From: Aureimonas sp. Leaf324
Lineage (GTDB): Bacteria > Pseudomonadota > Alphaproteobacteria > Rhizobiales > Rhizobiaceae
Length of the DNA stretch: 64,000 nucleotides
Reading direction: 5' to 3'
Assembly (NCBI RefSeq): GCF_001423245.1
Contig: NZ_LMOH01000004.1
Location: forward strand, 1-64,000
The translations under genes were made by a program, and so were the position numbers. Shown here one piece after another: positions 16,717 through 21,878 of the stretch. The notes beneath the pieces were generated by a model that did no database searches, was not told where the DNA came from, and saw only the letters and a program-made list of their open reading frames with translations. How positions within the stretch are numbered: position 1 is the first letter of the stretch; every line of letters begins with the position of its first letter.

Positions 16717-17268
16717 CTAGCGGTAGAGGCTGACCGACTGGCCGCCGCTGGTGGTGCCTTCGTAGCGCGTGCCGCCCGTGTTGTTGAGCGTCGCCACGGT
16801 GGAGCCGCCCGAATCCTTCAGCACCACCTGGTTGCCCGAGACGTCCCAGGCCGAGACGTCGGCCACCTGGCCGGGGCAGCCGCGCGAGGCGGCGCGGTAG
16901 CCGCCCGTCCACTGCGTCAGCGCCATGAAGATCTGGCAGTTGCCGCCGCCCGACGACACGCGCCAGGCGCCGACCAGCCCTTCGCGCGTCACCGGCGCGG
17001 CCGAAGCGGTCTGCGTCGGGGCGGGCGTCTGCGCAGGGGTCGAGGCGTCCGCCGTCGGGGTCACGGGCGCCGCGGTCACGGGCGCCGCCGGCGGCGGCGG
17101 CGGGGGCGGCAGCTGGTTGGAATAGACCTGGCCGGTCGGGGCCGCGCGCAGGGGAGCGGGACTGCGGACATTGCTGCCGCCGCCGCCGAAGCTCGGGCTC
17201 GCCGACTGGCAGCCGGCAAGAGCCAGCACGGCCGCAAGGCCGAAGCCCATCCTGATCATCTGGGTCAT
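16717..17268 (-). CDS. Omp19-like lipoprotein, AprI/Inh-type protease inhibitor
   Basis: A 183-aa lipoprotein. The signal peptide ends in LALAGC. A Gly/Pro-rich linker with a run of eight prolines (about residues 50-60) follows, and then a C-terminal beta-barrel inhibitor domain (about residues 90-183). The domain is GAWRVSSGGGNCQI ... CPGQVADVSAWDV ... YEGTTSGGQSVSLYR. Layout and motif order match Brucella Omp19, an outer-membrane lipoprotein that inhibits host and bacterial proteases. The two domain cysteines are retained. ATG at 17268 has GGGGAACGGGG upstream. Confidence 0.8.
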   Translation of the reverse strand: MTQMIRMGFGLAAVLALAGCQSASPSFGGGGSNVRSPAPLRAAPTGQVYSNQLPPPPPPPAAPVTAAPVTPTADASTPAQTPAPTQTASAAPVTREGLVGAWRVSSGGGNCQIFMALTQWTGGYRAASRGCPGQVADVSAWDVSGNQVVLKDSGGSTVATLNNTGGTRYEGTTSGGQSVSLYR

Positions 17269-17566
17269 CCCCGTTCCCCGTCGTTGGTTGCCGCGCGAGA
17301 TCGCGCCGTCCGCATCACCGGCTGTAGAAAGGGTGTTTACCATGTTCCGCAAGCAAAGCGCCCGCAAATCCGGCGGCCGTCCCCAGCGCTGTGTCCGCCG
17401 TGCAACGCCGGCCGCGACCTGCCCGAACGGGCGGGCGGGAAAGAATGTTTCCCTTATCAATCGCGTCGCAGCATGGACATGCTTCGGCCCGCGCGCCCTC
17501 ATGCCCTAGATAGGGATCCTTCCCGCACGCCCGTCCGAGGCGTGCGCTTCCTCTCGGAGTTTCCCG

Positions 17567-18985: not shown

Positions 18986-19648
18986 TCAGATGACAGCGTC
19001 TTCCACGTCGACCAGCGGGCGCTGGAAGTCGCCGGTCTCGGCATCCATCGCCCACAGCTCGGCGGTCGAGATGTCGAACCACGCGCCGTAGAGGTTGAGC
19101 TCGCCCGCCCGCTCGCGTGCGGCGATGTAGGGGAAGGTACGAAGGTTGGCGATCGAGGTGCGGATCGAGATCCGCTCCAGCGCCGTCTGCCGCTCGCCCG
19201 ACGTCATCAGCTCGTTGGCCGCCACCGTCTCGGCGACGGGCTGCAGGATGCTCATCCACTTGCCGATGAAGTCGCCGGGCGACAGCGGCGCGGCGCCGGT
19301 GGTCAGCGCCGCCTTGATGCCGCCGCAGCGGCCGTGGCCCATCACCACGATGTTCTTCACCTTCAGCGCCTGCACCGCGAATTCCAGCGCGGCGGACGTG
19401 CCGTGGAACTCGCCGTCCGGGTTGTAGGGCGGCACGAGGTTGGCGACGTTGCGCACCACGAAGAGCTCGCCGGCGCCGGCACCGAAGATCGTCTCGGGCG
19501 CGGCGCGCGAGTCGCAGCAGGCGATGACCATGGTCTCCGGCGTCTGGCCGTCGCGCGCCAGCGCCCGATAGGTCTGCGTTTCCTGAAGATAGCGGCCCTG
19601 CACGAAACTGCGGTAGCCGGACACGAGGGCATCGGGGAGAAGGGTCAT
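18986..19648 (-). CDS. Beta-carbonic anhydrase (alternative internal start)
   Basis: From ATG 19648 the frame encodes a complete 220-aa beta-class carbonic anhydrase. The zinc ligands are C44 (CCDSR), H105 and C108 (GHGRCGG), with the Asp46/Arg48 dyad. GGAG precedes the ATG at about 6 bases, so internal initiation could yield the free enzyme in addition to the fusion described for 18986-20473. It interconverts CO2 and bicarbonate for carboxylases and pH balance. If only one start is used I cannot tell which from sequence. Confidence 0.75.
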   Translation of the reverse strand: MTLLPDALVSGYRSFVQGRYLQETQTYRALARDGQTPETMVIACCDSRAAPETIFGAGAGELFVVRNVANLVPPYNPDGEFHGTSAALEFAVQALKVKNIVVMGHGRCGGIKAALTTGAAPLSPGDFIGKWMSILQPVAETVAANELMTSGERQTALERISIRTSIANLRTFPYIAARERAGELNLYGAWFDISTAELWAMDAETGDFQRPLVDVEDAVI

Positions 19649-20473
19649 CGTCGCTCCGTCGCTGGTTCGGATCGCTTCTAGACCAGTTTCTTCCGCGCTG
19701 CACAGGGGGTCCCGTGGCAGCCAGATCGCAGCGGGAAGGCCGTGCGCGTCGCGCTCCGGCGGGTCCGGCGAGGGCCGCGCCCGGCCCGCCGCCACCGCGC
19801 GCGCCACCATCAGCATCGCGCAGGCGTCGATGCGGTCGTCCTCGCCGACGCCGCGCGGCCGCGGGGCGAGGAGAAGCGCCGGCGGAAGGCCCGAGCGTTC
19901 GAGGAGCGCGCGGCGCTCGTCGAGCCCCGGCTCGTTCGGCCGGCCGCCGCGCTTCTTCGGATGCGCCATCGCCGTGCCGCCGTTCAGGGCGGCGAAGGCC
20001 GCCTCGGGATGGCTCTCGAGAACGCGGTCCGCGAGCGCCGGCTCGGCGCGCAGGAGCCGGTCGATCTCGAGGATCTTCGGAAACAGCATGAAGCCCTGGC
20101 GCGAGACGCCGCGCGCCGGCTCGGAGCGCGCTCGTGCCAGCGCCGAGGCGCGGGCGTGCGCAGTGGCCCGCGCCGCCTCCGAGCCGTGCGGCCCGTCCCA
20201 GGCCTCGACCGCCGCGCGCGCGGGGATCGCAAAGAGGCTCGACCGGCGGGCCCCCAGCATCGGGCGCACCGCGGTCTCGGCCGCGCGCCCCAAGCCGCGG
20301 ATCGCCTCGGGCAGGCCGATCGGCATGTCGACGACGACGATCGCATCGCCCGGCAGGGCGCGGAGGAGGCTCTCGAAACTCGCGTGGACGGCGAGCGCCG
20401 TCGCGCCGTCCTCGTACTCCACCGCCGCGATCCAGCCGCCGGGGCAGCCATCCACACCGGCGAGCGTCTTCAC
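18986..20473 (-). CDS. DUF429 domain fused in frame to beta-carbonic anhydrase
   Basis: One uninterrupted 495-codon frame. Residues 1 to about 255 form a DUF429 protein with TLAGVDGCPGGWIAAV, VVVDMPIGLPE, SHPEAAFAAL and DDRIDACAMLMVARAV. That family has an RNase H-like fold, often called a predicted nuclease. After the usual DUF429 end (LPAAIWLPRD), some 20 linker residues lead without a stop codon into a complete beta-carbonic anhydrase whose Met is residue 276. The GTG start overlaps the pdxY stop as GTGA, indicating translational coupling. Either a true fusion or, less likely, two products from one frame. Confidence 0.7.
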   Translation of the reverse strand: MKTLAGVDGCPGGWIAAVEYEDGATALAVHASFESLLRALPGDAIVVVDMPIGLPEAIRGLGRAAETAVRPMLGARRSSLFAIPARAAVEAWDGPHGSEAARATAHARASALARARSEPARGVSRQGFMLFPKILEIDRLLRAEPALADRVLESHPEAAFAALNGGTAMAHPKKRGGRPNEPGLDERRALLERSGLPPALLLAPRPRGVGEDDRIDACAMLMVARAVAAGRARPSPDPPERDAHGLPAAIWLPRDPLCSAEETGLEAIRTSDGATMTLLPDALVSGYRSFVQGRYLQETQTYRALARDGQTPETMVIACCDSRAAPETIFGAGAGELFVVRNVANLVPPYNPDGEFHGTSAALEFAVQALKVKNIVVMGHGRCGGIKAALTTGAAPLSPGDFIGKWMSILQPVAETVAANELMTSGERQTALERISIRTSIANLRTFPYIAARERAGELNLYGAWFDISTAELWAMDAETGDFQRPLVDVEDAVI

Positions 20474-21375
20474 GCGCGCCGCCCGCCCCCCGCCGGCTGC
20501 AGCCGGCGCATCTGCACCATCGCCATCGGCGTCTTGAGGCTGTCGGCGTCGGTCTCGAGCGTCAGCTCGTCCTTGCCGCGCTTGGTGGTACGGGCGAGGA
20601 TCTCGAACACGGCGGCCGTCGTGCCCTGCAGCGCCTTCTCGCCCGTGGCGCCCGACAGGATGCGCGCCAGGAATACGGCACCGGTGAGGTCGCCGAGCCC
20701 ATTCGGCACGCCCTCGATGCGCCGGTGCTCGGCCAGCATCGCCGTCCCCTCCTCGACGAGGAGGTTGCCGATGCCGCCCCGCAGGAGCGGAAAGGCCGAG
20801 GTGACGACGACACGCGCCGGCCCGAGCGCGCTCGCCGCCTCCACGAGGTGGGCGTTGGTCGAGAACTCCAGCCCGGTGAGGAACTCGAGCTCGAACCGGT
20901 TGGGCGTCGCGATGTCGGCGCGCGGCACGAGGAGGTCGCGCACTGCCGCCACGGTCTCGGCCGGCTGGTAGAGCCGCCCGCCCCCGTCCCCGCCGTCGCC
21001 GAGCACGGGATCGCAGAGATAGAGCGCCTGGGGGTTGGCGCGGCGCACGGCGTCCACCAGCTTCGCCACCGGTTCGACCTGGTGCGCGGCGCCGAAATAG
21101 CCGGAGATCACCGCTCCGACCTCGCCGAGCCAGGGCGCGCGCACGAGGTCGTCGACGAAGGCGGCGAACGCCGCCTCCTCCGGCACGATGCGCGTCGCCG
21201 GTCCGTGGCCGGGATGCCAGGGCAGGGTGACGGTCGGCACCGACCAGACGGGAAAGCCGAGCGATTCCAGCGCGAACACCACGGCGCGGTTGCCCACGGT
21301 GCCGCGCGCGACATGGCTCGAGATCGACAGGACGGCCGGCTTGTCGCCGCTGGCGGCGGATGCGGAAAGGCTCAT
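20470..21375 (-). CDS. pdxY: Pyridoxal kinase PdxY
   Basis: A 301-aa ribokinase-fold kinase. It has the N-terminal SISSHVARGTVGNRA, the substrate/ATP region LCDPVLGDGG, the EFLTGLEF region TPNRFELEFLTG and the anion-hole/catalytic motif GLGDLTGAVF (usually GTGD). It phosphorylates pyridoxal in vitamin B6 salvage. It is translationally coupled to the downstream DUF429-carbonic anhydrase frame through a four-base overlap, and a small membrane-protein gene lies immediately upstream. Confidence 0.9.
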   Translation of the reverse strand: MSLSASAASGDKPAVLSISSHVARGTVGNRAVVFALESLGFPVWSVPTVTLPWHPGHGPATRIVPEEAAFAAFVDDLVRAPWLGEVGAVISGYFGAAHQVEPVAKLVDAVRRANPQALYLCDPVLGDGGDGGGRLYQPAETVAAVRDLLVPRADIATPNRFELEFLTGLEFSTNAHLVEAASALGPARVVVTSAFPLLRGGIGNLLVEEGTAMLAEHRRIEGVPNGLGDLTGAVFLARILSGATGEKALQGTTAAVFEILARTTKRGKDELTLETDADSLKTPMAMVQMRRLQPAGGGRRA

Positions 21376-21384
21376 CGGCGTCCT

Positions 21385-21642
21385 TCAGAGGGCGGAGAGC
21401 TGATAGGCGAGCCCGATGGCCAGCCCGATCACCGCGACGAGGCCGGCCAGCCGGCCGATCCGCGTGCCGACCACCTCCATCCGGTCGGCGGGATCGGCGT
21501 CCGCCGCCCAGAAGTGGCGGCGCAGGCCCCGCGTCATGCTCTCGGCGGCGGCCCCGGTCTGGGGCTCGGTTTCCTGGCGCACGCGCCGCAGGATGGCCTC
21601 GGCCTCCTGCTGCCGCGCCCGATCGTCGGACGGGTTCGTCAT
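21385..21642 (-). CDS. Small single-helix membrane protein
   Basis: An 85-aa protein with a hydrophilic, Glu/Arg-rich N-terminal 55 residues and one C-terminal transmembrane segment (IGRLAGLVAVIGLAIGLAY). It would be tail-anchored. The ATG at 21642 precedes MTNPSDDRARQQ. It ends nine bases before pdxY on the same strand, so it is probably the first gene of the pdxY operon. No family recognised. Confidence 0.6.
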   Translation of the reverse strand: MTNPSDDRARQQEAEAILRRVRQETEPQTGAAAESMTRGLRRHFWAADADPADRMEVVGTRIGRLAGLVAVIGLAIGLAYQLSAL

Positions 21643-21878
21643 GGCCCGGACCCTCGCGCAAAAGCATGACGAGAGCAATACGAGCGCCGCCACGGATCGG
21701 GGCATCGACCGACCGCAGACATGACGGCCTGCCGCCCTATAAGTCTCGCATGGTGGCGGCCCGATCCGAGAAGCACGGTTGCCCCGACCCGGCCCTCATG
21801 GTCCCGTCACGGGCCGATGAGATGATTCGTTTCCAGCCCGACAAGGGCCGAACCGACCGACTTCCCGAGGGGACACGC

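Follow-up and report, generated by a model that had tools for sequence, protein, structure and literature searches.

Does the open reading frame at 18986..20473 encode a two-domain enzyme, or two neighbouring genes that have come to share one frame? The frame lies on the minus strand of the 64,000 nucleotides of Aureimonas sp. Leaf324 DNA analysed here (the window) and joins a DUF429 domain to a beta-carbonic anhydrase (CA). We found that the fusion is real, young and local. It is probably a recent genomic accident and not a purpose-built two-part enzyme. The features of the locus are:

20470..21375, minus strand: pdxY, pyridoxal kinase (NF004398, 318.7 bits against a cut-off of 292); its stop overlaps the GTG of DUF429
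18986..20473, minus strand: DUF429-linker-beta-CA open frame, 495 aa, GTG start, TGA stop; same architecture in genomes G018, G009, G016 and G004
19751..20458, minus strand: DUF429 domain (PF04250), Pfam match over residues 6-241; RNase H-like by published prediction, as given in the available part of PMC3985635
19649..19717, minus strand: linker, residues 253-275; starts where DUF429 stops in unfused relatives outside G014 and G017
19677..19704, minus strand: TGTG-N-TAGA block in the linker, candidate CA promoter, in 18/21 Aureimonas genomes
19654..19657, minus strand: GGAG, ribosome-binding-site-like, five bases 5' of the ATG at 19648
18986..19648, minus strand: predicted free beta-carbonic anhydrase from the internal ATG at 19648; homologues align from this Met

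The frame runs without a stop from the GTG at 20473 to the TGA at 18986 and corresponds to a protein of 52.5 kDa. The DUF429 domain is complete in this frame, matching the whole PF04250 profile (1-214 of 214; E 2.3e-46; 158.7 bits against a cut-off of 23; Pfam). Pro_CA (PF00484) covers residues 314-472 (profile 1-155 of 156; E 2e-45; 155.3 bits against a cut-off of 25.7; Pfam). The putative zinc-site residues, in fusion numbering, are C319-C-D321-S-R323 and H380-G-R-C383. CxDxR and HxxC, which we take to be the zinc-site motif of beta-CAs, are therefore both present. Based on the profile match and these residues, the domain is predicted to be a beta-carbonic anhydrase that hydrates CO2. A product started at the ATG at 19648, whose Met is residue 276 of the fusion and in frame, would have 220 aa and 23.7 kDa. 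An earlier note, made from the letters of this DNA alone, had described one stop-free frame joining a full DUF429 to a full beta-CA with its zinc residues, and a GTG start coupled to pdxY. The frame and the Pfam matches confirmed the first point, and the overlap of the pdxY stop and the DUF429 GTG as GTGA bore out the second.

DUF429 carries the conserved stretches VDMPIGLP and DD..D, and its acidic (Asp) positions are conserved across 15 Aureimonas sequences. A PDB sequence search found no solved relative of the domain; the best match was gelsolin (E 0.034). DUF429 (PF04250) is also catalogued as COG2410, COG4328 and COG4923. The family has been placed in the RNase H-like superfamily and is regarded as a likely nuclease, and the rare partner domains named in the available part of that report are NUDIX and RelA/SpoT (PMC3985635). 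The window protein has the whole domain and the conserved stretches of the family, but its partner is CA. For the CA domain, the best chains in a PDB sequence search were 1ekj (pea) and 1ddz. Compared with the beta-CA family (Pro_CA), the domain is whole, has the expected zinc-site residues and has its start codon as in relatives. Unlike in those relatives, the frame in five Aureimonas species extends upstream into another gene.

CA is present in 21/21 Aureimonas genomes, and the open fused frame is found in five of them: the window's own genome (G000) and the relatives G018, G009, G016 and G004. The linker is of equal length in all five, and several substitutions set G016 and G004 apart from the other three. 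The earlier note had pointed out that a sequencing error might mask a frameshift or stop codon where the two domains join. We rejected an error in sequencing or assembly, to which we give a negligible probability, because the open frame recurs in the assemblies of five species and the more distant two have different linker substitutions. The note had also considered that relatives might all have separate proteins. This holds for part of the genus: 16 of the 21 genomes are unfused (separate genes in ten, no DUF429 match in six), but five are fused. A fusion kept across many lineages would mark an established fusion family, and 5/21 within one genus falls short of this.

No fusion outside Aureimonas was found among the matches listed, which came from 560 relatives (80 loci kept), 297 genomes of the family and 297 genomes of the order. 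Three of the 80 listed loci read through (L030, L031 and L054), all from Aureimonas genomes already in the count, and in ten others the stretch examined gave no DUF429 match. We counted a match as spanning both domains if it began by residue 5 and reached residue 484 or more. Among the matches listed for the family sample, 21 span both domains, and the two of these without a stop are G000 and G016, both Aureimonas. Among those listed for the order sample, which overlaps the family sample, two span both domains: the window (open) and G427 (with a stop). We found no report of a DUF429-CA fusion in the literature on DUF429/PF04250, on Aureimonas carbonic anhydrase or on beta-CA fusions (subscription papers lie mostly outside this coverage). 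Among the genomes searched, the fusion is limited to one species group.

The gene neighbourhood is conserved. pdxY lies 5' of CA on the same strand in 21/21 Aureimonas genomes, and DUF429 lies between them in 15 (five of them fused). The six genomes with no DUF429 match at E 0.001 are G001, G002, G003, G005, G006 and G010 (loci L015-L020), and in these the gap between pdxY and CA is 65-261 bp. The earlier note had proposed a four-function operon of pdxY, DUF429, CA and a small protein. We did not retain this proposal: pdxY and CA adjoin with or without DUF429, and the linker has an apparent CA promoter and ribosome site. The small protein, 5' of pdxY at 21388-21705 (minus strand), has a hydrophobic stretch at its C-terminus and had no Pfam or NCBIfam match at E 0.001. 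Elsewhere in the window, 16717-17502 (minus strand) encodes a protein with a C-terminal Inh protease-inhibitor domain (PF02974).

How did the two frames become one? With G014 and G017 set aside, the alignment holds eight separate Aureimonas DUF429 proteins, and each has a single residue after I-W, I-H or I-R before it ends, which is where the linker starts in the fused species. This agrees with the suggestion of the earlier note that the DUF429 stop was lost; the loss is in frame and lies between genes that are conserved neighbours. Two unfused genomes have related endings. In G017, the usual stop is lost too, and the TAG of the TAGA block closes the frame, which leaves 30 bp to the CA start. 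The G014 frame is closed by a TGA within the block, with 50 bp left before CA begins; the block there has one base fewer than in the fused species. Four states together give a snapshot of the birth of a fusion: separate genes, an extended C-terminus that stays unfused (G017), an early closure (G014) and the open frame. Gene overlap or fusion through mutation of an upstream stop codon has been described; the overlaps in the available part of that report are out of phase, whereas the Aureimonas extension enters the downstream gene in phase (PMC2542354).

The five fused species and G014 form one group with support of 100/100, with G017 beside it, in trees of GDH protein and DNA. A multiple alignment of about 12 kb also gave the six-species group, in agreement with GDH. 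A branch setting the five fused species apart was present in 14% (GDH protein) and 18% (GDH DNA) of 200 bootstrap trees, and in 1% with the ~12-kb alignment. In AU tests, the five as one clade were not rejected (p-AU 0.403 and 0.405 for the two GDH trees, 0.122 for the ~12-kb alignment). We lean towards reading the low bootstrap values as G014 lying inside the group, with one later closure of the frame. A reference-anchored DNA tree disagreed with the GDH trees by grouping G017 with the fused species, and we judged it unreliable (five fused as a clade 0%, p-AU 0.022).

That a frame of such length is open is not improbable for this sequence. Of letter shuffles of a 72-nt stretch with the composition of the linker, 56% lacked an in-frame stop. 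We kept 68 DUF429-CA pairs from 109 loci, allowing one locus per genome and leaving out loci that lacked either gene, gaps >250 bp, opposite strands and partial DUF429 matches. Five of the pairs are fused; of the rest, 32 have a stop but are in phase, and 31 are out of phase. In-phase pairs are probably over-represented, since the ranking of loci used how well they matched the complete fused query. Among the 63 unfused pairs, 12 would open into CA on losing their single stop. Two genes can resemble one protein in a high-GC genome, so that a DUF429-CA architecture alone is no proof of a functional link.

We found that the linker has the marks of an upstream region of a CA gene. TGTG-N16-21-TAGA occurs within 120 nt 5' of CA in 18 of the 21 Aureimonas genomes, compared with 0.065 expected in all from dinucleotide-block shuffles of the same regions. 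The block is kept in 5/5 fused species and also in species with a stop inside or before it. It is present where DUF429 lies as far off as 399 bp (G020) and 549 bp (G012), and in four of the six Aureimonas genomes without DUF429 (G001, G002, G003 and G006). It was absent 5' of CA in three Aureimonas genomes (G010, G005 and G008) and in all 73 non-Aureimonas loci. In the fused species, CTGTGC and TCTAGA are 17 bases apart, the spacing of a -35/-10 pair. A sigma-70 consensus scan gave no match. The bare block pattern is not rare, with one match in the 64 kb of the window against 0.69 expected; the block owes its weight to being conserved at a single position in related species. In 20/21 Aureimonas genomes, including all five fused species, a GGAG is found no more than 18 nt from the CA start. 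The linker is best read as the CA gene's own leader and, as we infer, its promoter. In G004 (L005), the codon directly before the CA ATG is also ATG, giving two adjacent in-frame starts.

Codon-level comparisons were made with NG86 counts on ten fused pairs (five sequences, 23 linker codons); the pairs are not independent and the numbers are small. In the seven distant pairs, omega was 0.51-1.68 for the linker, 0.27-0.35 for DUF429 and 0.09-0.15 for CA, and dS was 0.06-0.23 for the linker, 0.53-0.73 for DUF429 and 0.27-0.36 for CA. Protein-level selection on the linker was not found in these seven pairs. The three close pairs each have one or two linker changes, all synonymous and too few to judge. 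The low dS and high omega of the linker fit DNA that is conserved as DNA and not as codons.

These comparisons bear on the reading in which the fusion is a functional two-domain protein and the main CA product, tying a predicted nuclease-like domain to CO2/bicarbonate chemistry. Both domains are complete, but the linker between them, judged from the distant pairs, is not constrained as protein, and it retains a ribosome site and DNA that resembles a promoter. Omega values of 0.20-0.35 across the ten fused pairs show purifying selection on DUF429, whose Asp positions are conserved in 15 sequences; however, omega is much alike when G014 or G017, both unfused, is one of the pair (0.27-0.40), so the fusion brings no visible change in the constraint on DUF429. 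In a well supported group of six species, five have the open frame although DUF429 identity has fallen to 72%, so there is some room for weak selection, but G014, of the same group, is unfused. In addition, DUF429 is unmatched in 6/21 genomes, whereas CA is found in every one. No selection for the fusion was seen in the present comparisons, and we consider a functional two-domain enzyme unlikely.

Our results are most consistent with a stop-loss fusion in which free CA from the ATG at 19648 would be the main functional product and the 52.5-kDa DUF429-CA protein a tolerated side product, and we hold this to be the probable course of events. The DUF429 stop codon would have been lost in an ancestor within Aureimonas, and the DUF429 frame would then have run through the promoter/leader region of the next gene and, by chance, into CA in phase. 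The candidate promoter in the linker and the ribosome site would drive free CA. DUF429 translated from the pdxY transcript would unavoidably yield the fusion, at DUF429's own level of translation. The fusion may be tolerated, with a floppy linker and both domains still able to fold. Most likely, then, free CA is still made from the ATG at 19648, and ribosomes on the DUF429 frame would also make the fusion. Of the two outcomes that the earlier note had offered, a lone two-domain protein or an additional start at the internal ATG, the internal start is thus the one that the sequence favours (the GGAG and the kept block), and the lone protein less so.

An AlphaFold2 model of the window protein was used in outline only, since separate DUF429 rows were poorly placed at the C-terminal end of its 37-row alignment. 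DUF429 was modelled with confidence (10-residue pLDDT means of 86-98 up to residue 250) and CA moderately (54-93 over residues 281-490). Linker residues 256-280 had pLDDT <50 and the pTM was 0.55, indicating no defined packing of the domains. In a PDB fold search with the two-domain model, the best 50 of 1106 matches were all beta-CAs, with CcaA 5swc and pea 1ekj at the top.

Beta-CAs work as oligomers. Free CA from an internal promoter and start, and fusion from the whole frame, might therefore form mixed oligomers that have their own role, a dual output that selection keeps. The anatomy of the locus is the same as for a tolerated side product, but we saw no sign of a role for the fusion, and the open frame could persist passively with its DNA constrained as a regulatory region. 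We regard a kept dual product as very doubtful. It is also improbable, though conceivable, that the promoter and ribosome site in the coding linker lead to co-assembly of free CA and fusion into a CA oligomer bearing a few RNase H-like domains. If true, such co-assembly would be a young natural test of the birth of a multidomain enzyme with the old product kept.

The region 5' of CA looks different outside the genus. In the 60 nt 5' of CA in the 73 non-Aureimonas loci (L033-L109, mostly Mesorhizobium), TGCCGC-N12-22-[CT]TAG occurs in 19, compared with 0.08 expected, a pattern that was drawn by eye after ten of these loci. Its end lies 6 nt 5' of the ATG in 18 of these. GGAG, AGGA or GAGG lies within 18 nt in 2/73 of the same loci, and AAGG within 25 nt in 60/73. 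That CA might be made there from a leaderless transcript is only a thought.
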